A stretch of DNA of 64,000 nucleotides. It comes from Aporrectodea caliginosa. Taxonomy: Eukaryota; Annelida; Clitellata; Crassiclitellata; Lumbricidae. Below the pieces are notes generated by a model. It did no database searches. It was not told where the DNA came from and saw only the letters and a list, made by a program, of their open reading frames with translations. Positions 24,801-49,700 of the stretch are shown piece by piece. The stretch lies in assembly GCA_020284085.1 (NCBI GenBank), contig JACEVL010000834.1:186001-250000 (forward strand), given 5' to 3'. Made by a program: the position numbers and the translations under genes. The number at the start of each line of letters is the position of its first letter. Within the stretch, counting starts at the first letter, position 1.

Positions 24801-25729
24801 GTTCCCGGAAGGCGTTTCTCTTTCCCCGGGGCTTCTGCACTGAGAGCGCCTCTGAATAGTCCATAGTGTGAGAGGTGCTTTAAAAATGTCCAGATACAAT
24901 GCAATCTGATATTAAGTAAGTAAGTAAGTAAGTAAGTAAGTATATTCTTTATTCAACCAATTGCATATCCGCACTTTGGTGTACATACATTTATACAGAG
25001 TATAACATTCTTATTATAAACGATCTGCGTGAAAGATTGTCAGCTTGTGGAATAAAACGGTCATGTAATCTCGGGCGCAGGGTGTAGGGGAGCGGCTTTT
25101 GGGGGGAGTAGTCCATGGAGTACATGCCCCGGGTTTCCTAGGACCGCAGAGAAGAGGCGTGAGTCGGCAGTGTTGCAAAGATGCTCAAACGATGGACTGT
25201 CTTCTGGCAGGTACCGCAGACGAATGAGACGCCGCATCGCCGACTGAAGGCGGTTCTTTTCTTGCTGCCCTGCAAATCCCCACCAAGCCGGAGCAGCATA
25301 GAGCATTCGGGCCACCGTTGTAGCACGAACCACGTCGTATAGCATAGGTCCTGAAAGACCATGCGCCATCGAGTTGATGCACCTTTCATACTTTTTAGGC
25401 ATTAGAAATGCAGACCACTTGTGATCATCCGTTCATACTGAATTGTAATCATCCTGCGTAATTGTCAGTTTGAATTAATAAAGATTATATATTATTATTA
25501 TGTTGAAAAGTCATGTTGTGAAGCTGAATGAATTTGTGATAAATGTTCGTAACTGACTTGTGTAGTAATACATTTTAGTGCATTGTAAGGCTGGTTATCT
25601 TTCTTCTTACACTGTTATCAGTAAGCACATAGATTTGCTAATCTTGGTTGTCGTACATGAGGTTTGTTCCACTTTCAGCTTGCCTCGTACTGGGAATCCT
25701 TCATTCCGGAAGCAAAGCTGATCGCATAA
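9734..25729 (+). CDS. SNX2: sorting nexin 1/2-like (PX-BAR protein), complete 12-exon gene
   Basis: Twelve exons join in frame to 507 codons plus stop: 9734-9817, 11451-11505, 12085-12308, 15220-15318, 16014-16155, 16900-16978, 17862-18054, 21184-21277, 22520-22725, 23227-23370, 24320-24472 and 25679-25729. Every junction is GT-AG with matching phase. Residues 1-121 are an acidic, Ser-rich N-terminal region, as in SNX1/SNX2. Residues about 122-255 form the PX domain with RRFSDFLGLH (169-178), the IIPQAPEKS loop (191-199) and EKRRASLER (220-228), the 3-phosphoinositide-binding residues. Residues 267-290 fit the amphipathic linker helix, and 293-507 the BAR domain ending YWESFIPEAKLIA. Known family role: membrane-curving SNX-BAR subunit of retromer-coupled endosome-to-Golgi sorting. 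Vertebrate SNX1 and SNX2 are 520-odd residues; an invertebrate would normally have one co-orthologue, so SNX1 and SNX2 cannot be told apart here. Confidence 0.95.
10530..10840 (+). mobile_element. LINE 3' end with (ACTT)n tail, in SNX2 intron 1
   Basis: Translation gives FSAVLANPGHVLHRFLPP, the RT C-terminus also seen at 25,061-25,402 and, decayed, at 34,050-34,672. It ends with AATAAAGAATATACTTACTTACTTACTT. 5'-truncated and dead. Confidence 0.8.
10860..10945 (-). repeat. inverted copy of the GTCCCTGAGG / (AAT)n family
   Basis: An ATT-rich run leads into TTTTTTTGCCCCGAGG and ATGATCCCTCAGGGAC, the reverse complement of the leader-tail structure at 190-453. Confidence 0.75.
11163..11330 (-). 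mobile_element. SINE-like fragment, SNX2 intron 1
   Basis: It shares a core (GAGCAATTGTGAGT, AAGGACTTGCT, CTACAC) with the copies at 13,658-13,865 and 21,479-21,668. The tRNA-like head is degenerate here. Confidence 0.6.
11451..11505 (+). CDS. SNX2: SNX2 exon 2 (residues 29-47)
   Basis: Acceptor TTTTGTAG, donor GTGCGA, ending in phase 1. It encodes VDLDDEVTQTTTKAEPVN, a low-complexity acidic segment. The family does not conserve this part, so the boundaries rest on phase and splice sites. Confidence 0.7.
12085..12308 (+). CDS. SNX2: SNX2 exon 3 (residues 47-121)
   Basis: Acceptor TGATTTCAG, donor GAG|GTTACA. It encodes the rest of the disordered acidic N-terminus (LLEEDEEKS, PEPTGSSSP) and ends phase 0 directly before the PX domain. 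Confidence 0.85.
12365..12427. repeat. short tandem duplication (about 31 bp, two copies)
   Basis: TTAATTAAGTGTGAATCGTG plus TTATTCA occurs twice in a row just downstream of SNX2 exon 3. Confidence 0.85.
12477..12773. mobile_element. Mutator-like MITE with 9-bp target duplication
   Basis: The termini are GGTTACGCTCGATAGTCC and GGACTATCGACCTGTTACC, with inverted arms built from repeated TTCGATAGTCCGAAG units. Flanks AGTTTCAAT (12,468-12,476) and AGCTTCAAT (12,774-12,782) match at 8 of 9 positions. The interior holds roughly 50-bp tandem repeats (CCAACTT, TTAAGCAAGAATT, TTTTCATC). A 9-bp duplication points to the Mutator group, though no transposase is present to confirm it. Confidence 0.72.
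13025..13551. mobile_element. hAT-type non-autonomous element, exact 8-bp duplication
   Basis: The ends are TAGGGATGTTAA and TTAACAACCCTA, with CGATTATCGG-rich subterminal repeats. The flanking duplication CTTCACAT is exact (13,017-13,024 and 13,552-13,559). The centre (about 13,125-13,395) contains four diverged tandem copies of a roughly 65-bp unit around CCACAGCCAACGAGGTAATA. No coding sequence. Confidence 0.9.
13658..13865 (-). mobile_element. tRNA-derived SINE, SNX2 intron 3
   Basis: Read on the minus strand it starts with an A-box-like TAGCACATTCATTAGAGCG and a B box GGTTCGAGCC. A core around TTAACTCACAATTGCTCAGC follows, and it ends in a TGTATTGTATTG tail. A second copy lies at 21,479-21,668. 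Confidence 0.75.
14194..15037 (+). mobile_element. hAT-type element with (TAACTG)n arms and BED exon remnant
   Basis: The left end is CAGTGTTATTTC and the right end is GAAATAACACTG. Flanks CTCTAAAG (14,186-14,193) and CTCTAAAA (15,038-15,045) match at 7 of 8 positions. Both arms consist of imperfect TAACTG/CAGTTA repeats. The centre encodes a BED zinc-finger-like segment. Its flanks resemble a LINE 3' UTR that recurs near 38,860, so it inserted into older repeat DNA. Confidence 0.8.
14597..14761 (+). pseudogene. BED zinc-finger-like fragment of a hAT transposase
   Basis: Translation MFKPSSGRKVESGMWEHFVY followed by a region with two adjacent Cys has the W-x-x-F spacing of a BED finger, which opens many hAT transposases. 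The second Cys pair is out of register and the frame closes without a catalytic domain. Confidence 0.55.
15109..15140. repeat. 13-bp perfect hairpin
   Basis: ATGGGTATGAAGT and ACTTCATACCCAT flank the loop GCTAAG, 80 bp upstream of SNX2 exon 4. Function unknown. Confidence 0.85.
15220..15318 (+). CDS. SNX2: SNX2 exon 4 (PX, residues 122-154)
   Basis: It encodes IEILVSEPKKIGDGMNAYVVY, the first strands of the PX domain, closely matching SNX1/2. Acceptor TTGCCTTAG, donor AGG|GTACAT. Confidence 0.93.
16014..16155 (+). CDS. SNX2: SNX2 exon 5 (PX, residues 155-202)
   Basis: It contains RRFSDFLGLHEKL, with the Arg and aromatic residues that bind the 3-phosphate and stack on the inositol ring, and the IIPQAPEKS loop with its conserved Lys198. 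Ends phase 1 at GTTGGT. Confidence 0.95.
16283..16440. mobile_element. hAT-type MITE (158 bp), SNX2 intron 5
   Basis: The ends are TAGAGATTGGGCA and ATCCATCTCTG, with AATCGATTAGAATTAG-rich arms. Flanks GTGTAAAC (16,275-16,282) and GTGTAAGC (16,441-16,448) match at 7 of 8 positions. Confidence 0.75.
16900..16978 (+). CDS. SNX2: SNX2 exon 6 (PX, residues 202-228)
   Basis: It encodes GMTKVKMTKDETGSL and FVEKRRASLE. The RR pair is the second phosphoinositide-contacting site of the PX domain. Acceptor ATGTTTAG, donor GTAATT. Confidence 0.95.
17862..18054 (+). CDS. SNX2: SNX2 exon 7 (end of PX and linker helix, residues 228-292)
   Basis: It encodes FLNRIAKHPDLRSDRNFIDFLE, completing PX, then SAGLVRLFGKVGDSINKM, which matches the amphipathic helix preceding BAR. 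Donor CAG|GTATAA. The following intron carries the 2.8 kb LINE. Confidence 0.94.
18096..20945 (-). mobile_element. 5'-truncated Jockey/CR1-group LINE, SNX2 intron 7
   Basis: Read on the minus strand: the C-terminal half of an endonuclease (IILAGDFNINLL, ISDHLPVMF), an RT domain (VIPLYKSGERNKISNFRPIS; motif A after a frameshift at a 7-T run near 19,480; FADD at about 19,200), KLSLNIDKTKF, and a C-terminal WSAS/RYHHRLLP region ending near 18,394. A 3' UTR closes with AATAAATGGCTTACTTACT. The 5' end is lost inside the endonuclease. Stops and frameshifts interrupt the ORF several times, so this copy is dead. It inserted opposite to host transcription. Confidence 0.9.
21184..21277 (+). CDS. SNX2: SNX2 exon 8 (BAR, residues 293-324)
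   Basis: It starts WFEDKQEQIESLDQELKQLH, the first BAR helix, in the same place as in vertebrate SNX1/2. Acceptor TTCAATCCAG, donor GTTTGT, phase 1. Confidence 0.94.
21479..21668 (-). mobile_element. tRNA-derived SINE, SNX2 intron 8
   Basis: Same family as 13,658-13,865: tail TACAATACAATACAACTG, shared core, and a B-box-like GATTCAAGCCC on the minus strand. Confidence 0.72.
22000..22395 (+). mobile_element. CR1-like LINE 3' end, SNX2 intron 8
   Basis: The start reads LHWLPFHRHMVFKILMLMCN then TGCAPSYL, the RT C-terminal signature HWLPV...FKI...APSYL. It ends at GGTGCTATATAAATATGAAC plus an ACAATTACAG-type tail. Degenerate. Confidence 0.75.
22520..22725 (+). CDS. SNX2: SNX2 exon 9 (BAR, residues 324-392)
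   Basis: It contains QFAKSVAVLGSSEENMALSK and DFFVLAELVKDYINLIQSVK, both highly characteristic of SNX1/SNX2. Acceptor TTTCCAG, donor AAG|GTAGGT. Confidence 0.96.
23227..23370 (+). CDS. SNX2: SNX2 exon 10 (BAR, residues 393-440)
   Basis: It encodes RVKLYKVWKDAETTLAKKRE and a Lys-rich stretch at the BAR tip. Phase 0 at both ends; donor GAG|GTAAAC. Confidence 0.94.
23479..23655 (+). mobile_element. CR1-like LINE 3' UTR fragment, SNX2 intron 10
   Basis: It ends GAGCGCCTCTGAATCTG, GTGGCACTATACAAATG, then TTCAATTACAATTACAATC. A close relative lies inverted at 41,332-41,500, sharing GACTATCTTATTTGTT and the tail. Confidence 0.75.
24320..24472 (+). CDS. SNX2: SNX2 exon 11 (BAR, residues 441-491)
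   Basis: It encodes WEQRVTKSQESFDEISRNIR and FKSTIINYLQVMMNNQQQ, the last long BAR helix. Acceptor TTCTGTTAG, donor CAG|GTAAAG. Confidence 0.95.
24600..24900 (+). mobile_element. CR1-like LINE 3' end, SNX2 intron 11
   Basis: Translation AFAVVGPSAWNDLPLL is the terminal RT motif (A-P-S-x-W-N-x-L-P). It is followed by GAGAGCGCCTCTGAAT and AGAGGTGCTTTAAAAATG. Confidence 0.75.
24913..25410 (-). mobile_element. (ACTT)n-tailed LINE 3' end, SNX2 intron 11
   Basis: A 113-codon minus-strand frame reads ATTVARMLYAAPAWWGFAGQ, then LQSAMRRLIRLRYLPED and NPGHVLHGLLPPK, an RT C-terminus. The tail is (AAGT)n at 24,915-24,940 on the plus strand. Same family as 10,530-10,840 and 34,050-34,672. Confidence 0.85.
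25679..25729 (+). CDS. SNX2: SNX2 exon 12 (C-terminus, residues 492-507 and stop)
   Basis: It encodes LASYWESFIPEAKLIA and TAA, the conserved SNX1/2 C-terminus. Acceptor CACTTTCAG. Confidence 0.95.
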   Translation, partial: LASYWESFIPEAKLIA

Positions 25730-30315: not shown

Positions 30316-32256
30316 CTGCATGGAGGAGCACGACAAACCAGTTGCACTTAAAACATAAACAGACAGGAATTTAATGCATGTTCAGAACATTAGATAGGAG
30401 TAGCAGAAGTAAGGTTGAGGGCTTGATCCTTAGGCCAAAGTCCTAGGACGGATCCAGGCATGCTGTTAACTTAGGACTAACTGTTTGAATAGCTCAAGGG
30501 TTGCCTCTTAAGATTATTAGGCTGAAAGGTCATGACAAATTAAACTAGGCTAATAAAGTAACTAGTCCCCAACTAAAAACCAAGTAAGTAGAAAAATCAG
30601 GACAGATCCTTGGAACTAACAAAGGTCGTAAAATCTAGAAAACTGGGATGAAATCCGGAAACAAAAATTCTATCAGGACTGGTAAAATTTCAATGGTAAT
30701 CAGAAAGCCCTGATGACTAGGAATGAAAATTCTGTTGACAAAAAGTGCAAAGAATCATCAAAACTTGTTTGACGAGTTACGAATGACCTTCCTTGCATGA
30801 CCCATGTGTAGCCTACCCTTCTACATGTATACCACTCTACATGTAGAAGTCAACTCATGATCGTAATGAAGAAAGCGGCCTGGTGCTAGGCTCAATCCTA
30901 GTGCAACCACTTCTCAGGGAAGTTGAGCCTAGAAATCATCCTTACATCAACACTGTAGGCTACAGTGAATAATGGAATAATGCAGAGCTACACATTATAA
31001 GGCCAAGTCGCAATGACGCATCGGCTGGAAAGAGACAATCAAATAGTTCAGAGATTTATATACCTACTGTTACTCAAGCTCCCTTTGAATCCCTAGTTTC
31101 AGATCAATTTGCTTTTAGACCCACTGGTTCCACCTCTGCAGCCGTAATATCAATCACACATCATACACAACTCCTCCTAAAAACCAACGAATATGTCTCA
31201 ATAATCTCCCTTGACTTCTCCAAAGCATTTGACTCTGTTAAGCACTCTGCCCTATTTGACAAAATCTCCACTCTTGATATCCCAGACCAAATCTATAACT
31301 GGCTAGTTGAATATCATCTTGAACGCTCACACCTCACTGTATTCAAAGGTCACTCTTCATCTCTGCTCAAAATCAATGCTAGTATAGTTCAAGGCTCTGC
31401 CTTAAGACCTACCAATTTCTCCATTACTGGTTCAGACCTGCACCCTGCTCAGCCCCTTAATCTTATGTTCAAATTTGCAGATGACACTTACCTCCTTACT
31501 GGATCCTCTCAAGCTCATACTATTCCATCTGAACTGCATTTAATCTCTACATGGGCTTCTGCCAATAACCTTACCTTAAATAGCTCTAAATCTAAAGAAA
31601 TGATCATTTTCCGACCTCGACACCAATTTGAACCTCCTCCTCCATTACCTGGTATTACCCGAGTTAAAACTTTGAAAATACTGGGTGTCATCCTTCAAGA
31701 TAATTCAAACTCACAGCCCATATAGACCACCTCACAGCTACTTAATTGCTCCTCCTCTTTTTATGCTATCAGAAAACTCAAAACCCATGGCCTTTCTTCC
31801 TCATCCATCCATAATGTAACCAAAGCCACTACCGTTGCTAAACTTCTATATGCCTCCCCATCCTGGTGGGGTCTCACCCTGGCTTCCGATAAAGAACGCC
31901 TGGAAAAACTCCTAAAAGAGCCAAACGCCTAGGATACCTAGAGCAATCCTTTCCAGCAGTCTCTGAACTTGCCAATATAGCCGATGCGAAACTCCTTTTC
32001 TCCATATTACACAACCCCAAGCATGTACTTCACCAACTCCTACCTCCACTCCGACCCCTCTCCTCTCACCAATTAAGACCTTGAGCACACAACCATACTC
32101 TCCCACCCAAGGACAACTCTCAATTTATTCCCAGATCATTAGGCCTATATAAAAATATTTACTAGTTTATTCTAAAATATTCTGATGAACTTTATTATTC
32201 ATTATCACTCATGTTAGCATTTCTGTGTTTTTGTCAGATTGTTTTCTCAATTAAAC

Positions 32257-32302
<46 letters not shown>

Positions 32303-35300
32303 GTTATGGTCCGTAAATTGATTTAGGCATGGAGGTCTGTAAATAGCGTCCTTGATTTAAGCGAATAACAATATTGATAATACTGATGACGTATATTATA
32401 ATAAACAAATCATTCTTGCGATGACGTCATCTTCTTGCGATGACGTCATCTGCATCGATTGTTTCTAGGAAACGAGCTTAACGAAGCGAGATTTATTTAG
32501 AAACTAGCATTTTTTACCCGGCGTTCGCCCGGGTTTTCCCAGGCGTAATTTTTAACGGCTGCAAATAAAGGCTACTTACTTACTATATTTGCTGATGGGC
32601 TTCAAATATTTAAAAAATGTCCATATATCTGAATGGAAACGATATTTAGAGGTGAACATAGTTGCTTTGCCCGTGTACTGCACGGGTTATCTCTACCTTA
32701 TAATTATAGGCAATATTATTTGTTCCCCGTACTACACGGGTTATCTCAACCTGAAATAGGCGTATTATTTGTTCCCCGTACTACACGGGTTATTTCTAAA
32801 TTATAATACGCTTTTTATTTTCCGTTAGCCAGCGTGACGTAAGATTGCATATTTAGGCGCGTGACGTAATTTAAGATTGCATATTAATTTTAGTGACGTG
32901 GACAAATGGGCATGTTTATAATGTCCATAAATCGGAATTGAAAGCAAATTATGAGCTGAAAGTAATTGGGATGAGATAGAAATTCGAATAGCTAAAGTAA
33001 GTTTCGAGTTGCTTTGACCTAGAAAATCGGCAATGGCCGTGGTTGCAAAAAATGTGAGCTTAGTGTAATTAGGTCACCAAATCTGTAAATGGTTGCGCTG
33101 ACCTAGAAATTCGCCCGTGGCGACTTCTGATTGGTTGCTAGATGCTCCGTGTGACGTAAGATTGCTTATTAAGCATGCGTGACGTGAACAAATGGCCTTA
33201 CTATGGGCGGTATTGAAATAAGCTCGCTGAAAAGTTAAATTTAAAATGGCCATATATCGGCGTTTAAATAAAATTGCGAACTGAAAATAGTCGCGTTGAC
33301 CTAGACGTTGCGTAATAATGCTTTGTAAATTTTTTCAACTCGCTAAACCGTTCCGTTTCGGAGCCTTTAGCCGGACAGCGATGCATTGCAAACATACATA
33401 CATACATACGGAAGGACAAACTTTAAGAATTATAGTATAAGATTCGACATGAAAGAGTTGAGACGAGATAAGACAATTTGAACAGAAAATAATCGAAAAT
33501 CGTCGATTTGAAGAAGTAAAAATTCGAAATTCAACGAAGTCAGTTAAAGAAGACACTAATAGTACGAACAAGAATCATATGTGCGACACGCAATTGCCGT
33601 TTCGAACAGAAAATCATAAAAAATGTCAACACGAAAAGTTGAAATTCGAAGTTTCGTCGAAATAGCTGCATTTTTGAAGACGCGCAAACCGACCAACAAT
33701 CGAATGATCAACAAGAATGGCATTTCAAACAGAAAAGAGTTAAAACAGACAGAAAGATATCTGGATAATTGTTTGCAGGCGACATTCACTTAAGGTAAGC
33801 CTTACATGAACAATGTTTAAACGTCACTGTGCTTAACCTCTGTGGACTATGTATCATAGATATAATAACACTGGATACAGCTATTATATCTATGGATACA
33901 GCAAGCAGTAAGATTTCTGATGCAGACATCTATTTTTGGCCAGTGACGTCATCTGGTGCAGAAAGCAGTCTTTCTACAGTGAAGTTAATAGAATTTGCCG
34001 TAATCGTAGTTGTAAACTCTACATTTCTAAAGGGGCACTTTAAAGCCAAGGCACAAGGCACCAGCTTATTCGGGATCGCTGCGTCTGGTCAGAAGGGTTG
34101 TCCCGAGATATCGAGTGGAGCTCCGTTCGATTGTCAGAGAGAGGAGTCAGAGGTCTATCGCCCATTATGGCTCTTCTGACCCCGGCTATACGACGTGGTG
34201 TGTGCGTGCGACCACGGTGTCCCGTCTGTTATACGCTGCCTCCGCATGGTGAGGATACGCTGGCCAGCAAGAAAGGGGAAGGCTCCAATCCGTTATAGGC
34301 TAAACAGACTACTCCGACGTTTGAACGTCTAACCCTCCAAGCGGATATTAACCTGTTTTCGGCGGTCCTAGGAAGCCCGGGTCATGTTCTTCACAGGTTG
34401 CTTTCACCCCTGAGGAAGGTTAACTGCCTATGGCCAAAACCTCATGACCGGGTTTGCCGAGAGCAGACAATAGCATACGATGAGGAAAAACTGTATAGTC
34501 AGAATGCTGTACATGTACTAACTATTAGTTAGTAACTAACTGGTTAGCTTTTAACTAGCCATAGATGGGCTTGATTGTTTAAATGACTGCTTGCTTTAAT
34601 CATGATGTTTGTTCACCAGAGTGCTGTTTGACAGTTGTCTATAAATAAAGAATATACTTACGTACTTTTACTTTAGCTGGGTCAGTGTAGGTATTGGTGG
34701 CGGGGGGAATGAGAATATACAGAATTAAGGAGGAAGATGATTCCAGGGTCTAGGACTCTAGACGCAGTGAAGTGGATGCAATCATGGATTTTCAGCCAGA
34801 GGAGTGAATTAAAGCTAGGAGTGAAATGGTGATGCTTGGGTATGCTGAAGACAGATCATAACAGTTAATTTTGAATGAGTTGAAGACTTCAAACTTCTTG
34901 TTTTCTAGTGCAAAATACACATTTATTCATCAAATAAGTGTACTGGCACTGTAGTAAACAAAGATAATGAGGCATATGCAGTTATAATAGAAATATACAA
35001 TCCACAACTTCAATGCTTAAAATTAATACAATTTAATATCTGCTATAAAGAAATTGGAATAAATGAAAACATTTGTAATTATGAGAACTTTTATAAATAT
35101 ACGTTTATTCACCACGAAGGTAGAAAGTACAAGAACAAAAAGTTAAATACAAACAGATGCAAAACTGGCATACATGAGATGATAACTTCTGTGATCTAGC
35201 ATATTTCAATACTGTAGCTGTAATATCCTTTGTCACAAACACAAAGAACACTGTTGTCATGACTACCATAAAACAGTCACCAATAAAGTTGTTTACACTG

Positions 35301-38300
35301 GTGTAGCATATGAACGAGGTCAATGTGACCAGAATAGAATTGAAAGTCTAACAGATTTTTATTTATGCAAGTTAAAAATCTTACTGTATATTTGTATGTA
35401 TGTATGTATACTTTATTGCACTTAAACACATACCATTTTCAAAAGTAGACAAGCATTAAAATACAAATGGAGCCTCACAAAAGTAAAAGACTATGAGGTT
35501 AGGCCCCGGTTTCCAGTGTATAATCATTAACATTGGTAGGCTATCATCACTGTGTTAAAGTGTTAAATTTAATGTAGTAGTTATATGACACAATATCTGT
35601 AATTCTGTACTGAGAAGTATTTCAGCAAAACAAAATCATTGGGCCAGAATCAATTAATCCCAAACACAAATCAACTAGGGAAGATACCAAATGATAAACT
35701 ATAATGATAGTACTAACCATGAATAAGTACTTGTAATAAGAATGCCAGTATTATCATTTACACAATAGTAGTTTTAGTAATAATACCAATAGTGATACCT
35801 GCATTGTTTATAATGACAGTAATAGTAGAAGCAATAATAACACTGATGATAATAATAACAATATTTAGTCAGGAAAAATTTTAACAAAAATTGTTACTTA
35901 AAATGTAGATAACAATTTTCCATTACGTGCACACATAGGCCTACAACTGAAAGTAATTATCTGATTTAAGTCATCTACTGATTCTTAAAAAGAATAAGTT
36001 TCGTCAACGTGTTTCGAACTCGGGTCCCTTGGAGTCGAATGGTTTCAGCACTACTGATATGGTGAACTCGAACATCAACATAAGAGTCAATAACCAAATT
36101 AATGAGCAAGATCAAATGATTGTCCTCCACAGGTAAATCTTCAATGTGTGATTTCAAATCAATGAAAATCTGCTTTCCTGTCAAATGCTTTCTAATCGCT
36201 AATTTCATAGCTGGCACTTTCTTCATGAAGTCCTTCAGACACTTAAATCCTCCAGACACTGCTTGTCGTATAAATTGTTCTGTTACCCTGCATATTAAGA
36301 TTACATCTGCAGATGGCTTCAACAGATGACCGCGACTCTTCTTATCAGTTAGTAAGCATGACGATTTTTCATCAGTTACTGCATTACTGCAAGCTGTACA
36401 GTGGATAAGCCGCCGAACTTTTCTTGCAACAAAACCCCCAATGTATTTGACAACCTCGTCTGAATATTCGGACATTTGCATCGGGGACATGTGAAACATG
36501 TCTGAGCTATCGCAATGTTCTCTTCCAGTGGCTGCTTCTGAGGTTGTAGTTGTAAACTCATCATTTTTCAGTCGCCATTCTAACTGATTAATAATAACAG
36601 GTGCACTTGAAATTGATAGAATGCCTGTTGTATCTTGGGCCAGACAGTTGCCAGATTTAATGTTTCTAAGAGCATGGTGAACTACCAGCCTCTTGTACGT
36701 TGACATGAACTGACGAGCTGTTGGATTATTGTTATAGCCACCTTGACTCCGGATTGCACTGAAAAACATTTCAATGTGATCCTGGCTAAGCTTGTAGGTC
36801 AGTAAAAATTTGAAAGAAGTGTTGCTTGGATCAAGAAGCATTCTGCTTAATTGGACCACACTTTGCAGGCAGATCACAAATCCAATAAAACCAGTTTTCC
36901 TATTTGTCTCGTGCATAAATTTGCCAGTACTATCCTTCAAATTCAAGAGATACAAGGAAGCTAGGTCAACAAATTGAGAGACCTTTTCAAGGTTTCTGAT
37001 TGATATGGGTTGTTTGAATTCTTTTCCTAGGAAATTTCGGCTATTAAGGATATCAAAGCATTGGTCGATAACCTTGATAAAAGTTGCAGTAGCCTGACAG
37101 TCTTTAAAGTTTTGTAGGTTCAGTTGGTCAGAACAAAATTCAAGGGCATCTGCAACACTTCTGCTAAGCAACTGAGCAGCCAATTTAACTTTCATTTTTT
37201 GCCGCTGCCATTCCATATGATGCCTTCTTAACTTGTTGCCAGCATGTAGTCCTTCTTTGTTCTGGAGATCAAACAACTTTTCAATAAAGTTATAATTAAC
37301 TGTACCACTATTACAATCTATGAATATTTTTCTCTGTCCAAAACAATTTCTGATCAATTTCAGCATGTGACAGGCATCCAGTAAGACAAAAACTGGTTGA
37401 TCATTGCTTGGATGAGGGAACCAAGTTTTCAGATTATGGACATTCGACAGGTCTGCTCCCAAAATTTTCAGCATTGAGAGATTTGATGAGGCTCCATCAA
37501 ATGTGAGGGAAACTACTCTAATTCCTGTTGCATGTATTTTTATCAAACACTCTGTAACAATGTTTGCTTTTTCCTTTGCGTCGAGGCCATCGGTTAAGAA
37601 ATATCCAACTGGTAATTTCCAGTGTGCATTGACAGCCACCAGCATCAGAACAAATGCTTCCTTAGCAACTCCAACACTGTCATCATCAAAACCGGTACCA
37701 TAATTAACAAACCCATAGGATCTTTTACCATCCCATTCAACCTGCTTCCGTATGCTCATTTCATCCATCATGAGAGCACAGATAATTTCATGATTTTCCT
37801 GTTGCTGGCATTTTGAAGTCAGCATTTTCAATGCCTCATCAGTAAATCCAGGCTGTCCATTTACACTGCTGTACCACCGTCTCAGAGTGTTTTGGTGAGG
37901 AAGACATGTGTTAAACGTTTTCCTAACATACTCGTAAGCCTTTGCTGAATAAAAATGCAAAGTTAGGGCAAATGTACGCAACGATGGTGGGTACTTGACT
38001 CTGTTCTTCCCTTTCATTTGACGCTGAATTAGATCTGTAACTTCTGCACCAATGTTTTCCAGATTCTTTGATGCTTGCTCATTTAGTAATTTCTTATCTT
38101 GTAGCTCTTCCAAAATGTTTTTTAGGGAAATATAACGTTTTTTCATACGTCGGCACTGTTGCATGAGCCCTTTCACACGCTTTCGCTGCAACTGGTAAGC
38201 ATGCAAAACAAAACGCAACTTTCTTTTAACGTCTGTCAAACTGTCAGTGTCTTTTTCAGCACAGTCGCCAACATATCGAATTGTAGGAGCATGTATTCTT

Positions 38301-40676
38301 TTCAGTGATCTTAAAGTACCTCTGCTGTTTACATCGATCTGATCTGAGGCTTCTGTATTTTCAACACCAGCTGTTGACTGTGGAAAATTTCGATTCAGTG
38401 GAGGCTTGCGAGTTTTCACTTTCTTCGGTGCCAAGTGATCCGGAAACGCGAAGACACTAGGAACAGCATCTGGTTTTAAATACCGCCTAGAGCAAAATCC
38501 AGAAGTTTTGCTTTTATCAAATGCCTCCTCAACAAAATGATCAGAACATATGTAACTCCCTGAAGTTGGTTTGAAATTCTTTCGCTTAGTTGCCATAATC
38601 CATTTTTCACGCTGATCAGCATTTCTTGGAAAGCTAACAAAAACACAAGAAATGGTAAATTTTTTGTCCTTGTGATGCTGGCATGAAAATCATTGTTTTG
38701 AAGACCTTAACAGAGACTGAAGGTGATTCAGAATCTGGCCTAACCAATTGTTAAACCATATAATTATCTTCATGGTGAAAATGGTGCCCAGTAACATCAC
38801 ATGATTTCCATGGTGCATTATAACATGCCAATATGTAATGTAATCAAAAACTCCAAATTTGTAAAGCACCGCTTGAACACAGGCTCCAGTTTATTCAAGA
38901 GCGCTGCGTCAAGTCAGATGGCTTTCAAAAGGATAGTTAAAAGGACGTCCGAGTTTAGATGAGAACCCACTAAAGCGACCACACTTTTGCAGCAGCCAGC
39001 CCCAAATGGGCCAAATCTCAACTCAAGATATTATTATTATTAATTTATTATTATCATCATCATCATAATCATCATCAGCAGCAATCATCATCATCGTTAT
39101 TATTCCAAGAGTCCAAATCAAGAGAAGAGGCAGAGCAGCTGCTAAGGCGGGTGTCGTATAGGTCGAGAACAATTAGGCGGAGGATCAGGTTACTGAGCTG
39201 AGTCAGGGTAGGAATTCTCAAAACGGTGAGACTAGTTTTGAGTGGAAAGCCCGGGGGCCGCATGCAGGCTACATCAAAAACTTCACAATCCCTGGGTGTC
39301 TTTATATTACATGTGAATATCACCAACATTGTTAGGTTGTCCAAATTTGGATGGAGTAATACAAAATCACCTAAATGTAAATAAACACGTTTTCTATAGC
39401 GACCTTATGGCCTCGATCCTGCTCATTTTCAATGAACTGGTCGGCTGAGATCTAGCGTATGTTATTTCGAAGTATTAACCTTCACTAACCTGTGAAACGT
39501 GCGTAATCCTCCAGCAACACGCCTTGCTGTGCAACCATAAGCAGCGCATGATTTAGTCATTTCTTATCAATTTTAACTTTAACTAATCGGCTCGGTTTAG
39601 ATAAGGAACGCTAAACAACTTTTCCACCATAGCGCACGATAACCATGTCAACTTTCTCAAGCGGACGCTTTCTGCACCGTATGACGTAATTTACCATAGA
39701 GAGGTGTAGCCGTCATTCTAAATTTAGATTAGCCTGCGGACTGGCTTGCATGCACCATCCAGTGTTATTATATCTATGCTATGTATAGATCAATCTGATT
39801 ATGGTTTGGTTTTTGTGCGCCATCGGCTGATGCCTCGTGCATTAGACACTGCAGTGTGATACAGTTACTAAATATCCTACAATTACTAAATTGATTCCAA
39901 TGTCTTCAAATCTTTTAAGAAATATACATTCTTGGTAGGCCTAATGTTGCACCATAATTATTTTCTCGGTCATTTTCTTATTTTTTTAAATTATGTTTTC
40001 TTTCTCTTTAGTTTAAAAGTTTATCAAATCAAATCAAATCAAATTTATTCGAATCGATTCCATGAACAGTGAGTACAATGTACACGTGTGAATACAGTTA
40101 TTAACAGTTTACATTTCGTAAGCGCCATTAATAAGAAACAAAAATTGAAGAGGTTATAGTCTAACAGGTTAAGTAATAAAAATCGATTCGTGGGGAGAAG
40201 AAGCCCAATGGGCTTATCTAGTCTTCCCCACTATGATGGAACAAATTGATAGAACTAGAAAGGAAACATGTGTCAGTTCAATTAACATAGGATGAGAAAT
40301 AGGCATGGCAGCAGTAAAATCAACGTCAGTTAAGTAAGTGTTTTTTATAGGCCTGTTTGAAGGAGTTGAGTGACCTCTGATTACGGATGCCACGGTCAAT
40401 GGAGTTCCATAGTTTAGGCCCAGTTATTCTAGCAGAAAATTGTCTAACATTAGTTTTACAGATATCAGAGCGAAGATTAAACCGAGATCTAGTGTTGTAG
40501 GCCTAACCGTGGACAGAAGCATTAGTGGAGAAATAACAATTAAATATAGCCTACTGGGTAAGGTTTGGCTCTGATGTCGGTACATGAAGATAGCAAGTTG
40601 GAGTTTATGTAGGTCAAAGATAGTTAATAAGTTTATTTTATTATTATCTCGCCTTAAATTCCAACTCAGCTATTTA

Positions 40677-40739
<63 letters not shown>

Positions 40740-43700
40740 GGAGTGTTGGCTATTATTATTATTATTATTATTATAAATAAATTTGTAACGCGCGCAGGGT
40801 CACACCGGTCACACCGAGATGTGAATCTGAGGCGCGGGTAGTTAGCCGCCAGGAGATGCACTTAGATATCCAAGTGCTTGAAAGCCAAAGAGAAATAGTG
40901 AGTTTTCAGCTACGAAGAGAGAGTGGCAGTCGATTCCATTCCTTGTGGACAGAGGCGTGGAATGCACGCGAGCCCATAAGGGCCATAACTGTTCTGCATC
41001 GAGGCTCACTTAAAAGACTGGTACTTCGTGAACGCAGGCAACGATCGGGGAGGGATGTAAGGAGTCAGTAGTGAATTAAGGTAGGGAGGTGTGCTGGTGC
41101 TGAGGGCTTTGTAGGTCAGACAGGCCAATTTAAATTTTATTCTGAATTCAACAGGAAGCCAATGGAGTTGATGGGGTAAAACTGAGGCACTTGTTCCTAG
41201 TGGAAAACGCAGCACAACGCGAGCCAAGGAGTTTTGGATGCGTTGCAGCCTGTTGAGATTGAGGTCTGAGAGACCCACAAAACCGAATTAGCATAATCAA
41301 GGCGAGAGGAGACAAGGGAACAGGCTATGGTTTTGTAATTGTAATTGTAATTGAACATTTGTATAGCGCCATCAAAGATTCAGAGGCGCTCCCGACCCAG
41401 GGCTCCAACAAATAAGATAGTCTTCAGGGGTTTCCGAAACAGAGGAAGAGAAAGGCTGAGGAGCTCAAGGCGCAATTCATGCGGACGATGTTTGCAACTG
41501 GCCGACATAAGCAAAGCTTCTGGATTGAGCAGTTGCACCGAGCTTTAATCAAGTTCAAACCTATGGCGTGGGGTTAACCCATGGCACTCTTCAGTTATAT
41601 TTGTACAAATTAGGCCTACTCTTCAAAAGTCAAATTGTATACAGGCATTTTCAACGGATATGCTCTAAAACTGTCTGTGTCCAAGCAACCCGCTGAAGCT
41701 TACCATGCGTGCTCCTAAGACCGCCCCTTGACACAATTATGCTGGAGCTTCAGACCCTACAATTTAATCTTTTATATTAAAGAATGGCAAAAATAAAACT
41801 ATGAAGAGCAAACCTTTTGTGATTTTCATTCCCTAAATTTAAAGAGACAGACATTGGACCTTTTCTTCCACCGCTATCGCCGGGAGTAGAGGAGATGGTT
41901 GGTGCAGCTGACGAGCGAATGCTCCATGCAGGAATAAGGAATGAATGCCATGTCTTACGAGGGTTATTTCCGCCAATTGTGCAACGACGGTAATAACCTC
42001 AGCCCAAGACGTCATGACTTTGAACTGCCTGCTAACTTTATCTCACAGGTACTTTACACACGCTTGCCCTAGGTCTCACTTGACTGTATACCCGACTGTA
42101 ATAATTATTTTACCTCTAATGATTTATTATTTAACACGCTAAGTCTTTTTTGTAACAGGGTTGCGGTCTGTCAACCTGTCAGAAAATAGGCTAAAACGAA
42201 TATCTACCGATATATGTGCCACATTATATATATGCTCCTTTATTGAAACACAAAGTTGACAAACCGCAACTTATACCAAGAAAGAGAGCGAGAAAATGTA
42301 TAACAGCCAAACCGATAGATTACAAGACAAATCGATAGTGTATAAAACAAACCAATTGAGTACAAGCCTAACAGATAGAGTAGGAGCCAAACCAATAGAG
42401 TACCACCCAAACCGATCGAGTACAACCCAAACCGAAGAACCAAACAGATGGAGTACAAGCCAAACCGATAGAGTACAAGCCAAACCGATAGAGTACAAGC
42501 CAAACCGATAGAGTACAAGCCAAACCGATAGAGTACAAGCCAAACCGATAGAGTACAAGCCAAACCGATAGAGTACAAGTCAAACCGATAGAGTACAAGC
42601 CAAACCGATAGAGTCAACCAAACCGAAGTAATAAATAGCCAAACCGATAGAGTACAAGCCAAACCGATAGAGTACAAGCCAAACCGATAGAGTACAAGCC
42701 AAACCGATAGAGTACAAGACAAACCGATAGAGTACAAGCCAAACCGATAGAGAACAAGCCAAACCGATAGAGTACCAGCCAAACCGATAGAGTTCACGCC
42801 AAACCGATAGAGTACAAGCCAAACCGATAGAGTATAAGCCAAACTGATAGAATACAAGCCAAACCGATAGAGTACAAGCCAAACCGATAGAGTACAAGCC
42901 AAACCGATAGAGTACAAGCCAAACCGATAGAGTACAAGTCAAACCGATAGAGTACAAGCCAAACCGATAGAGTACAAGCCAAACCGATAGAGTACAAGCC
43001 AAACCGATAGAGTACAAGCCAAACCGATGGAGTACAAGCCAAAGAGTACAAGCCAAACCGATAGAGTACAAGCCAAACCGATAGAGTACAAGCCAAACCG
43101 ATGAGTACAAGCCAACCGAAATATTACAGTACAAAACAAACCGATAGGAGTACACCGATAGAGTACAAACCGATAGAGTACAAGCCAAACCGATAGAGTA
43201 CAAGCCAAACCGATAGAGTACAAGCCAAACCGATAGAGTACAAGCCAAACCGATAGTTTACAAGCCAAACCGATAGAGTACAAGCCAAACCGATAGAGTA
43301 CAAGCAAACCGATAGAGTACAAGCCAAACCGATAGAGTACAAGCCAAACCGATAGAGTACAAGCCAAACCGATAGAGTACAAGCCAAACCGATAGAGTAC
43401 AAGCCAAACCGATAGAGTACAAGCCAAACCGATAGAGTACAAGCCAAACCGATAGAGTACAAGCCAAACCGATAGAGTACAAGCCAAACCGATAGAGTAC
43501 AAGCCAAACCGATAGAGTACAAGCCAAACCGATAGAGTACAAGCCAAACCGATAGAGTACAAGCCAAACCGATAGAGTACAAGCCAAACCGATAGAGTAC
43601 AAGCCAAACCGATAGAGTACAACAAACCGATAGAGTACAAGCCAAACCGATAGAGTAGCCAAACCGATAGAGTACAAGCCAAATAGAGTACAAGCCAAAC

Positions 43701-46700
43701 CGATAGAGTACAAGCCAAACCGATAGAGTACAAGCCAAACCGATAGAGTACAAGCCAAACCGATAGAGTACAAGCCAAACCGATAGAGTACAAGCCAAAC
43801 CGATAGAGTACAAGCCAAACCGATAGAGTACAAGCCAAACCGATAGAGTACAAGCCAAACCGATAGAGTACAAGCCAAACCGATAGAGTACAAGCCAAAC
43901 CGATAGAGTACAAGCCAAACCGATAGAGTACAAGCCAAACCGATAGAGTACAAGCCAAACCGATAGAGTACAAGCCAAACCGATAGAGTACAAGCCAAAC
44001 CGATAGAGTACAAGCCAAACCGATAGAGTACAAGCCAAACCGATAGAGTACAAGCCAAACCGATAGAGTACAAGCCAAACCGATAGAGTACAAGCCAAAC
44101 CGATAGAGTACAAGCAAAACCGATAGAGTACAAGCCAAACCGATAGAGTACAAGCCAAACCGATAGAGTACAAGCCAAACCGATAGAGTACAAGCCAAAC
44201 CGATAGAGTACAAGCCAAACCGATAGAGTACAAGCCAAACCGATAGAGTACAAGCCAAACCGATAGAGTACAAGCCAAACCGATAGAGTACAAGCCAAAC
44301 CGATAGAGTACAAGCCAAACCGATAGAGTACAAGCCAAACCGATAGAGTACAAGCCAAACCGATAGAGTACAAGCCAAACCGATAGAGTACAAGCCAAAC
44401 CGATAGAGTACAAGCCAAACCGATAGAGTACAAGCCAAACCGATAGTACAAGCCAAACCGATAGAGTACAAGCCAAACCGATAGAGTACAAGCCAAACCG
44501 ATAGAGTACAAGCCAAACCGATAGAGTACAACCCAAACCGATAGAGTACAAGCCAAACCGATAGAGTACAAGCCAAACCGATAGAGTACAAGCCAAACCG
44601 ATAGAGTACAAGCCAAACCGATAGAGTACAACCCAAACCGATAGAGTACAAGCCAAACCGATAGAGTACAAGCCAAACCGATAGAGTACAAGCCAAACCG
44701 ATAGAGTACAGGCCAAACCGATAGAGTACAAGCCAAACCGATAGAGTACAAGCCAAACCGATAGAGTACAAGCCAAACCGATAGAGTACAAGCCAAACCG
44801 ATAGAGTACAAGCCAAACCGATAGAGTACAAGCCAAACCGATAGAGTACAAGCCAAACCGATAGAGTACAAGCCAAACCGATAGAGTACAAGCCAAACCG
44901 ATAGAGTACAAGCCAAACCGATAGAGTACAAGCCAAACCGATAGAGTACAAGCCAAACCGATAGAGTACAAGCCCAAACCGATAGAGTACAAGCCAAACC
45001 GAAAACCGATAGAGTACAAGCCAAACCGATAGAGTACAAGCCAAACCGATAGAGTACAAGGCAAACCGATATAGAGTACAAGCCAAACCGATAGAGTACA
45101 AGCCAAACCGATAGAGTACAAGCCAAACCGATAGAGTACAAGCCAAACCGATAGAGTACAAGCCAAACCGATAGAGTACAAGCCAAACCGATAGAGTACA
45201 AGCCAAACCGATAGAGTACAAGCCAAACCGATAGAGTACAAGCCAAACCGATAGAGTACAAGCCAAACCGATAGAGTACAAGCCAAACCGATAGAGTACA
45301 AGCCAAACCGATAGAGTACAAGCCAAACCGATAGAGTACAAGCCAAACCGATAGAGTACAAGCCAAACCGATAGAGTACAAGCCAAACCGATAGAGTACA
45401 AGCCAAACCGACCGAGAGTACAAGCCAAACCGATAGAGTACAAGCCAAACCGATAGAGTACAAGCCAAACCGATAGAGTACAAGCCAAACCGATAGAGTA
45501 CAAGCCAAACCGATAGAGTACAAGCCAAACCGATAGAGTACAAGCCAAACCGATAGAGTACAAGCCAAACCGATAGAGTACAAGCCAAACCGATAGAGTA
45601 CAAGCCAAACCGATAGAGTACAAGCCAAACCGATATAGAGTACAAGCCAAACCGATAGAGTACAAGCCAAACCGATAGAGTACAAGCCAAACCGATAGAG
45701 TACAAGCCAAACCGATAGAGTACAAGCCAAACCGATAGAGTACAAGCCAAACCGATAGAGTACAAGCCAAACCGAGTACAAGCCAAACCGATAGAGTACA
45801 AGCCAAACCGATAGAGTACAAGCCAAACCGATAGAGTACAAGCCAAACCGATAGAGTACAAGCCAAACCGATAGAGTACAAGCCAAACCGATAGAGTACA
45901 AGCCAAACCGATAGAGTACAAGCCAAACCGATAGAGTACAAGCCAAACCGATAGAGTACAAGCCAAACCGATAGAGTACAAGCCAAACCGATAGAGTACA
46001 AGCCAAACCGATAGAGTACAAGCCAAACCGATAGAGTACAAGCCAAACCGATAGAGTACAAGCCAAACCGATAGAGTACAAGCCAAACCGATAGAGTACA
46101 AGCCAAACCGATAGAGTACAAGCCAAACCGATAGAGTACAAGCCAAACCGATAGAGTACAAGCCAAACCGATAGAGTACAAGCCAAACCGATAGAGTACA
46201 AGCCAAACCGATAGAGTACAAGCCAAACCGATAGAGTACAAGCCAAACCGATAGAGTACAAGCCAAACCGATAGAGTACAAGCCAAACCGATAGAGTACA
46301 AGCCAAACCGAAACCGATAGAGTACAAGCCAAACCGATAGAGTACAAGCCAAACCGATAGAGTACAAGCCAAACCGATAGAGTACAAGCCAAACCGATAG
46401 AGTACAAGCCAAACCGATAGAGTACAAGCCAAACCGATAGAGTACAAGCCAAACCGATAGAGTACAAAGCAAACCGATAGAGTACAAGCCAAACCGATAG
46501 AGTACAGCCAAACCGATAGAGTACAAGCCAAACCGATAGAGTACAAGCCAAACCGATAGAGTACAAGCCAAACCGATAGAGTACAAGCCAAACCGATAGA
46601 GTACAAAGCCAAACCGATAGAGTACAAGCCAAACCGATAGAGTACAAGCCAAACCGATAGAGTACAACCCAAACCGATAGAGTACAAGCCAAACCGATAG

Positions 46701-49700
46701 AGTACAAGCCAAACCGATAGAGTACAAGCCAAACCGATAGATAGAGCCAAAACCGATAGAGTACAAGCCAAACCGATAGAGTACAAGCCAAACCGATAGA
46801 GTACAAGCCAAACCGATAGAGTACAAGCCAAACCGATAGAGTACAAGCCAAACCGATAGAGTACAAGCCAAACCGATAGAGTACAAGCCAAACCGATAGA
46901 GTACAAGCCAAACCGATAGAGTACAACCCAAACCGATAGAGTACAAGCCAAACCGATAGAGTACAAGCCAAACCGATAGAGTACAAGCCAAACCGATAGA
47001 GTACAAGCCAAACCGATAGAGTACAAGCCAAACCGATAGAGTACAAGCCAAACCGATAGAGTACAAGCCAAACCGATAGAGTACAAGCCAAACCGATAGA
47101 GTACAAGCCAAACCGATAGAGTACAAGCCAAACCGATAGAGTACAAGCCAAACCGATAGAGTACAAGCCAAACCGATAGAGTACAAGCCAAACCGATAGA
47201 GTACAAGCCAAACCGATAGAGTACAAGCCAAACCGATAGAGTACAAGCCAAACCGATAGAGTACAAGCCAAACCGATAGAGTACAAGCCAAACCGATAGA
47301 GTACAAGCCAAACCGATAGAGTACAAGCCAAACCGATAGAGTACAAGCCAAACCGATAGAGTACAAGCCAAACCGATAGAGTAAGCCAAACCGATAGAGT
47401 ACAAGCCAAACCGATAGAGTACAAGCCAAACCGATAGAGTACAAGCCAAACCGATACAGTACAAGCCAAACCGATAGAGTACAAGCCAAACCGATAGAGT
47501 ACAAGCCAAACCGATAGAGTACAAGCCAAACCGATAGAGTACAAGCCAAACCGATAGAGTACAAGCCAAACCGATAGAGTACAAGCCAAACCGATAGAGT
47601 ACAAGCCAAACCGATAGAGTACAAGCCAAACCGATAGAGTACAAGCCAAACCGATAGAGTACAAGCCAAACCGATAGAGTACAAGCCAAACCGATAGAGT
47701 ACAAGCCAAACCGATAGAGTACAAGCCAAACCGATAGAGTACAAGCCAAACCGATAGAGTACAAGCCAAACCGATAGAGTACAAGCCAAACCGATAGAGT
47801 ACAAGCCAAACCGATAGAGTACAAGCCAAACCGATAGAGTACAAGCCAAACCGATAGAGTACAAGCCAAACCGATAGAGTACAAGCCAAACCGATAGAGT
47901 ACAAGCCAAACCGATAGAGTACAAGCCAAACCGATAGAGTACAAGCCAAACCGATAGAGTACAAGCCAAACCGATAGAGTAGTACAAGCAAGTACAAACC
48001 GATAGAGTACAAAGCCAAACCGATAGAGTACAAGCCAAACCGATAGAGTAGTACAAGCCAAACCGATAGAGTACAAGCCAAACCGATAGAGTACAAGCCA
48101 AACCGATAGAGTACAAGCCAAACCGATAGAGTACCAAACCGATAGAGTACAAGCCAAACCGATAGAGTACAAGCCAAACCGATAGAGTACAAGCCAAACC
48201 GATAGAGTACAAGCCAAACCGATAGAGTACCAGCCAAACCGATAGAGACACAAGCCAAACCGATAGAGTAGAGCCAAACCGATAGAGTACATAGCCAAAC
48301 CGATAGAGTACAAGCCAAACCGATAGAGTACAAGCCAAACCGATAGAGTACAAGCCAAACCGATAGAGTACAAGCCAAACCGATAGAGTACAAGCCAAAC
48401 CGATAGAGTACAAGCCAAACCGATAGAGTACAAGCCAAACCGATAGAGTACAAGCCAAACCGATAGAGTACAAGCCAAACCGATAGAGTACAAGCCAAAC
48501 CGATAGAGTACAAGCCAAACCGATAGAGTACAAGCCAAACCGATAGAGTACAAGCCAAACCGATAGAGTACAAGCCAAACCGATAGAGTACAAGCCAAAC
48601 CGATAGAGTACAAGCCAAACCGATAGAGTACAAGCCAAACCGATAGAGTACAAGCCAAACCGATAGAGTACAAGCCAAACCGATAGAGTACAAAGCCAAA
48701 CCGATAGAGTACAAGATAGAAACCGATAGAGTACAAGCCAAACCGATAGAGTACAAGCCAAACCGATAGAGTACAAGCCAAACCGATAGAGTACAAGCCA
48801 AACCGATAGAGTACAAGCCAAACCGATAGAGTACAAGCCAAACCGATAGAGTACAAGCCAAACCGATAGAGTACAAGCCAAACCGATAGAGTACAAGCCA
48901 AACCGATAGAGTACAAGCCAAACCGATAGAGTACAAGCCAAACCGATAGAGTACAAGCCAAACCGATAGAGTACAAGCCAAACAAACCGATAGAGTACAA
49001 GCCAAACCGATAGAGTACAAGCCAAACCGATAGAGTACAAGCCAAACCGATAGAGTACAAGCCAAACCGATAGAGTACAAGCCAAACCGATAGAGTACAA
49101 GCCAAACCGATAGAGTAGAGTACCGATAGAGTACAAACCGATAGAGTACAAGCCAAACCGATAGAGTACAAGCCAAACCGATAGAGTACAAGCCAAACCG
49201 ATAGAGTACAAGCCAAACCGATAGAGTACAAGCCAAACCGATAGAGTACAAGCCAAACCGATAGAGTACAAGCCAAACCGATAGAGTACAAGCCAAACCG
49301 ATAGAGTACAAGCCAAACCGATAGAGTACAAGCCAAACCGATAGAGTACAAGCCAAACCGATAGAGTACAAGCCAAACCGATAGAGTACAAGCCAAACCG
49401 ATAGAGTACAAGCCATATTCAGAGATATTCTGCAACTTAACAATTAAACATATTCAGAGATATTCTGCACAAAGCCCATTAATGGCCACTCACACGGCAT
49501 CAAATTTAGGTGTAGGGCTAGTTATTATTAGCATTCATTTTCTTTGCAATCACTGAAGTTTCTTCAATGTGCACAGGATCAATGGCTAGAATTGAAATAT
49601 GCCTGAAACCTTAATCTACTGAGAAGGTTTTCAGATAGTAACCGTGCACTATAGGCAGAGATTATTATTATTATTCAGGTATCAATTAAATTAACGTAGA

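Follow-up and report, generated by a model that had tools for sequence, protein, structure and literature searches.

Is the P-type transposon at positions 33855-39778 of the DNA analysed here a mobile element, a host gene derived from one, or a fossil of either? The stretch (hereafter the window) spans 64,000 nucleotides and corresponds to C833:186001-250000 of a host assembly of 1,097,852,775 bases in 4,544 contigs, which was searched for relatives of the element. The locus very probably represents a complete autonomous DNA transposon of the P superfamily that has transposed very recently in this host. It belongs to a small, very recently mobile family, as seen in near-identical and deleted copies, 28 ends resembling its terminal inverted repeats (TIRs), and paralogous empty sites. 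The defining features of the window copy are as follows:

33855-39778: whole P element, 5,924 bp, with 22-bp TIRs and an 8-bp duplication
33847-33854, no strand: left target-site duplication CTATGTAT, 8 bp, an exact match with the right one and single in three paralogous empty sites
39779-39786, no strand: right target-site duplication CTATGTAT, 8 bp, an exact match with the left one
33855-33876, plus strand: left TIR CATAGATATAATAACACTGGAT, 22 bp, 22/22 with the right end
39757-39778, minus strand: right TIR CATAGATATAATAACACTGGAT, 22 bp, 22/22 with the left end
33946-33966, plus strand: left subterminal inverted repeat, ACGTCAT followed by two mismatches and GGTGCAGAAAGC, 19/21 bases identical to the right one
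39667-39687, minus strand: right subterminal inverted repeat, 19/21 bases identical to the left one
39560-39490, minus strand: transposase exon 1, 71 nt, opening the THAP finger, with the same sequence in C392 and C40
39489-38634, minus strand: predicted GT-AG intron, 856 bp, placed by the reading frame and the completion of THAP
38633-35975, minus strand: transposase exon 2, 2,659 nt including the stop codon, supported by the open frame, Pfam, and the match to 6p5a

The exact duplication and the exact TIRs, both claimed in the earlier note from the letters alone, were confirmed at these positions, and no further site for CATAGATATAATAACACTGGAT was found in the window at up to five mismatches. 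Both end features of the P superfamily are present, namely TIRs flanked by an 8-bp duplication and subterminal inverted repeats lying inside them.

The two-exon transposase of 909 amino acids put forward in the same note was likewise upheld, the predicted spliced frame being open throughout with no internal stop. Splicing is also predicted to complete the THAP finger, as had been proposed, raising the match from 53.4 bits in the unspliced frame (model positions 5-87) to 64.1 bits (positions 1-87 of 87). All five Pfam domains (THAP, P-element HTH, RNase H N, the GTP-binding insertion or GBD, and RNase H C) scored above the curated cut-off. The exon-2 frame matched four distinct sequences in the PDB at E <= 0.001, the top one being Drosophila P transposase 6p5a (E 2.1e-34; 128 of 448 aligned residues identical, or 29%) and the other three being THAP domains. 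The alignment of acidic residues with Drosophila P, suggested beforehand as a check, revealed a conserved DDE triad (D230, D303, and E531), accompanied by all eight GTP-contact residues (11/11 key positions) and by the D(2)H motif (D339 and H342); the residue lists were taken from PMC7776569 and PMC8230255. In both its domains (THAP, HTH, split RNase H, and GTP-binding insertion) and its catalytic and GTP-contact residues, the protein is that of a P-superfamily member. A pattern search of viral contigs gave eight pattern matches, none of them a relative.

Mobility is most directly addressed by the copies elsewhere in the assembly. The 22-bp end occurs at 28 sites at up to two mismatches (10 exact, 7 with one, and 11 with two, the two ends of the window copy included), while its reversed control occurs at none. 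A 221-bp query from the right end gave 15 genome matches (15 of 15 candidates scored). They were counted as 13 separate ends, as two of them sit ~1 kb from another match and seem to be fragments of copies already counted. Four of the right ends stand at 98-100% identity (the window copy, C392, C420, and C40) and nine at 76-95%, three covering half of the query or less and one about a third. Copies were examined from eight extracted genome regions and their duplications judged at nine places, six of which carry exact 8-bp duplications:

exact duplications: CTATGTAT in the window copy; GCTATCAG in C420; GACGACAC in C40; TCCACAAC in C392; GCTACGAA in C4016; GTTTTATC in C207 (by eye)

Seven of eight bases agree in C372, and no duplication could be assigned in C2024 or in the rearranged C10 copy. 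In the latter (L011, C10:2275500-2285400), the left end and interior lie in one orientation with the right end inverted behind them, and the right terminus comes after GTTTTATC, which also forms the 8-bp duplication in C207. Among seven copies, the flanks have only short stretches in common, of up to 85 bp. C392 is a second full-length intact copy with unrelated flanks and its own duplication; C420, 1,192 bp long, is an internal deletion derivative that carries additional nucleotides at the point of deletion; and C40 is a third full-length copy, in which two 1-bp indels disrupt the frame, leaving 18 stops in the shifted stretch and splitting the coding region into frames of 390, 264, and 353 amino acids. 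When the flanks of the window copy were joined and searched, 40 of 55 genome matches crossed the junction without the element (40 of 1,058 candidates scored), and the three that were read carry a single CTATGTAT and no element, making them paralogous empty sites. The insertion site is therefore a host repeat with many other copies in the genome. The proposed search of the assembly with the ends and the protein thus recovered further copies with different duplications, and the prediction of a mobile or recently mobile element was borne out by near-identical copies in unrelated flanks and by the empty sites. Independent sites, at least one intact source, and little divergence, as expected of a recently mobile autonomous family, are all found.

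The divergence between copies speaks to how recent the movement was. Over 5,897 aligned bp, the window copy differs from C392 at none of 2,730 coding and one of 3,167 noncoding positions, apart from three indels of 21, 6, and 6 bp; the resulting 1.7e-4 differences per site has an upper 95% bound of 9.4e-4. Wherever the two differ, C40 agrees with C392 (nearly so in one tract), and the differences would accordingly have arisen in the window copy or in its assembly. Against C40, the window copy has 5 differences in 2,726 coding and 39 in 3,147 noncoding positions (Fisher p 9e-7), and all five coding substitutions are synonymous, where 21.4% would be expected for random single changes (0.214^5 = 4.5e-4). 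From this coding deficit and the synonymous substitutions, the transposase has been kept under purifying selection in the moving lineage. The comparison of coding sequences between copies recommended in the earlier note therefore favours one half of its suggestion, that the transposase is selected; the other half, slow decay, falls away, the copy being simply young.

The age that had been read from nested long interspersed nuclear elements (LINEs) was also rejected, for the flanks are an older host repeat and the LINE piece within the element is common to other copies. The internal pieces concerned are:

34139-34442, plus strand: degenerate LINE protein piece within the element, found by tblastn of the window LINE frame 25061-25432
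33999-34100, no strand: dispersed host repeat carried within the element; when the left end was used as query, 31 of 40 scored genome matches were confined to that part
38840-38954, no strand: piece related to the dispersed host repeat, in the transposase intron, found by matches within the window

The span of the LINE piece is gap-free in C392 and C40 and lies within the part retained by C420, and the piece therefore arrived with the family. Reverse-transcriptase frames near the element (18853-20222 and 30973-31722; RVT_1 in three of nine frames scanned) are part of the surroundings and not of the element. The dispersed host repeat of 33999-34100 is present twice within the element and at least twice more in the window (at 50.4 kb and 62.6 kb).

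Judging from the homology with Drosophila P, the THAP finger would recognise sites near the element ends, the RNase H domain with its GTP cofactor would cut one strand at the terminal CAT and the other at a more internal position, and the excised element would be joined to a new site, giving the 8-bp duplication. For the element in the window, we infer the splicing, the activity of the protein, and this chemistry.

Several other explanations deserve fair consideration. Purifying selection on the coding sequence is just what would be expected if the locus were a domesticated THAP9-like host gene whose transposon ends were fossil or coincidental, yet two unrelated loci carry the intact coding sequence, each between the same ends but with its own 8-bp duplication, and 28 end-like sites are scattered through the genome. 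Such a gene would be single copy and lack transposon ends, neither of which holds here; the single-copy locus without shared ends that had been named as refuting mobility is not what the assembly contains. The copies in the genome, above all the second intact one with its own duplication, led to the rejection of both domestication and a fossil, and the probability left to domestication is close to negligible. An assembly artefact or a segmental duplication, rather than transposition, could in principle account for near-identical copies, and uncollapsed haplotypes are possible in an assembly of this size and contig number; identity nevertheless ends at the TIRs, the flanks share no more than the short stretches noted above, and each copy has a duplication of its own, which renders this explanation very improbable.

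A family that moved recently but is now inactive, being silenced or without a working source, is a more serious contender, and we consider it quite possible while still leaning away from it. One of the three full-length copies is frameshifted and the activity of the family is predicted, whereas two intact copies stand one substitution apart. Certain points also weigh against recent autonomous transposition as a whole. All data come from one assembly; every difference from C392 lies on the window side, two of them in or beside a G-rich tract, and some could be assembly noise; furthermore, only two intact copies of the family were found, and a silenced family would look alike.

The left end of the window copy carries a record of its own:

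33874-33902, plus strand: scar, consisting of GATACAGC (33874-33881), TATTATATCTATG (33882-33894), and GATACAGC (33895-33902)

The left end thus runs from the TIR to offset 19 and continues with GATACAGC, TATTATATCTATG, and GATACAGC again, where the 13 nt of TATTATATCTATG correspond to the terminal 13 bases of the family's right end. Scanning for fragments of an end enclosed by 8-bp repeats turned up one instance in the window, against none across 30 simulated windows, and the 29-bp scar string is unique in the genome at up to two mismatches. The scar is absent from the seven other left ends read, which lack the insert and show GATACAGC, or a form differing from it by one base, only once. The simplest reading that this arrangement suggests is that another P element inserted at offset 20-27 of the left end and was later excised, leaving the scar as its remnant. 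In Drosophila, TIR positions 19-26 are a hot spot for the insertion of P into P ends. The 13 nt fit, for this single scar, an excision that leaves up to 17 terminal nucleotides between the duplications; a 17-nt staggered cut is described for Drosophila P in PMC7776569. A search of the literature on P insertions into P ends found nothing usable.

A consequence of the scar is seen in the spacing of the ends. In the window copy, the subterminal repeats lie at offset 92-112 from either end, and their 12-bp core at offset 101 on the left and 101 on the right. The left offset of the 12-bp repeat is 80 in five of the six relatives measured (C420, C392, C10, C4016, and C372) and 85 in C40, which has a 5-bp insertion; on the right it is 101 in five of seven (C420, C40, C392, C207, and C10) and 99 in C372, the repeat not being found in C4016. 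The 21-bp scar insert has therefore turned an 80/101 spacing into 101/101, a spacing peculiar to the window copy among those measured. The equal spacing that the earlier note had observed thus holds for this copy, with 19/21 bases shared, but not as a trait of the family, whose members are mostly 80/101. It may have lowered the mobility of the window copy.

Alternatively, the scar could stem from a template switch during gap repair of the window copy, with the right end as template. Extra junction nucleotides are linked to faulty gap repair, and those in the deleted C420 copy are of the kind that it can give. Nonetheless, the 13 nt run precisely up to the final base of the right terminus, the 8 bp after the insert equal the 8 bp before it at the length of a P duplication, and 13 nt is less than the 17-nt stagger given for Drosophila P in PMC7776569, so that a template switch appears unlikely and insertion followed by excision is preferred. 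By eye, three older copies (L013, L014, and L015) have GCATGCA or a near form after the 22-bp TIR, at offset ~26-32 of both ends. On sequence grounds, the original TIR may have been ~32 bp long, near the 31 bp of Drosophila.

The host group was approached through mitochondrial and telomeric sequences. The COX1 profile PF00115 had two strong matches with 12 TGA each, one on a 15,120-bp mitochondrial contig (C4544) and one at C70:3435453-3436790. In COX1, TGA stands for Trp, ATA falls at a conserved Met and AAA at a conserved Lys, while AGA falls mostly at Ser or Gly; the code is therefore the invertebrate mitochondrial one, which excludes vertebrates, echinoderms, ascidians, and cnidarians but not insects. 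The sequence (TTAGGG)8 gave 318 and 637 overlapping genome matches compared with 10 for the control, TTAGG itself not being searched. Most arthropods have TTAGG as their telomere repeat. The host is probably a non-arthropod invertebrate and, to judge by its COX1, perhaps a lophotrochozoan. The earlier placement outside the insects thus gains indirect support from the exclusions made by the code and from the TTAGGG arrays, although the code by itself is also found in insects. The COX1 match in C70, a contig of more than 5 Mb with positions to 5,202,022, scores the same as the mitochondrial one and is either a recent nuclear copy or a misassembly.

With the best-known relative, Drosophila melanogaster P, the element has in common the order of domains, the triad, the GTP-contact residues, the CAT-type ends, the 8-bp duplication, the subterminal repeats, and the internally deleted copies, as described in PMC7776569. 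It differs in protein sequence (29% identical over 448 residues), in length (5.9 kb as opposed to 2.9 kb), in its TIRs (22 bp as opposed to 31 bp), in one predicted intron instead of three, and in host group. Zebrafish Pdre2/zfTHAP9 is likewise a complete non-insect P element with CATA TIRs, 12-bp subterminal repeats, and an 8-bp duplication, according to PMC10983969, but has 13-bp TIRs and subterminal repeats ~400 bp in (PMC7776569). Its protein supported excision but not transposition in the assays given there (PMC10983969), whereas the present family has two intact copies one substitution apart. Human THAP9 is a homologous transposase able to cut P ends (PMC8230255 and PMC7776569); unlike the element here, it is single copy and without TIRs or duplications. 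The autonomous P elements of Anopheles gambiae, at 4.2-7.5 kb according to PMC1562414, include 5.9 kb in their range but have 27-31-bp TIRs and an insect host. Related P transposons are named for vertebrates and Ciona in the same paper, and a survey of bivalves with a P profile reports at least one element of every superfamily in bivalves, while the list of curated elements there names no P (PMC10294476). Among the titles and abstract openings of part of the matching literature, no report of an intact recent P copy in a non-arthropod invertebrate was found. P elements outside insects are already known; the interest of this family is in its strong evidence of complete, very recent transposition in such a host, together with the scar.

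A more far-reaching view, which we offer tentatively and with some doubt, is that a P element is active today in a non-arthropod invertebrate whose genome is home to four or more P lineages at once, that its ends obey an 80/101 asymmetry rule, and that the window copy is a natural experiment on that rule, its 21-bp scar coming from a P insertion into its left end. If so, 80 and 101 would differ by 21 bp, equal to two turns of the helix, in a manner resembling the 12/23 rule that has been invoked for Drosophila P, and the 101/101 spacing should cripple or alter the mobility of the window copy while its transposase could still serve other copies. The family would offer a natural source for testing complete GTP-dependent P transposition far from Drosophila and might serve as a gene vector, and the scar and the 80/101 spacing provide ready-made substrates for the study of P end pairing.

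The exon-2 protein gave at least 55 genome matches (51 of 891 candidates scored), and, by sequence comparison, this genome contains four or more P lineages. The other lineages are 36-48% identical to the exon-2 protein, several matches extending over at least 750 residues with no stop inside. Six aligned loci from three of them are 40-43% identical to the window protein and 42-52% between lineages. Five of the six retain every one of the 11 key residues, the sixth having one K replaced by R, and in two of the loci the frame is interrupted by a single stop. For lineage B, the reported stop falls right where the match begins. Four lineage B loci (among L038-L047) are 100% identical over 5,511 bp, and two of them, extended by longer flanks as L052 (C35:82500-92400) and L053 (C133:902200-912100), have 6,548 bp in common with no mismatch and three gap positions in different surroundings. 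Scans of the loci with 1.5-kb flanks found nothing convincing as ends of these lineages, and longer stretches yielded P-like right ends (CATTG) with no matching left end. In L053, the left-end sequence appears a second time beyond the right end.

Within the window, positions 42305-49415 hold a 7.1-kb array of ~355 copies of the 20-bp unit AGCCAAACCGATAGAGTACA with 95% matches, which is open in three minus-strand frames of more than 2,000 residues each.

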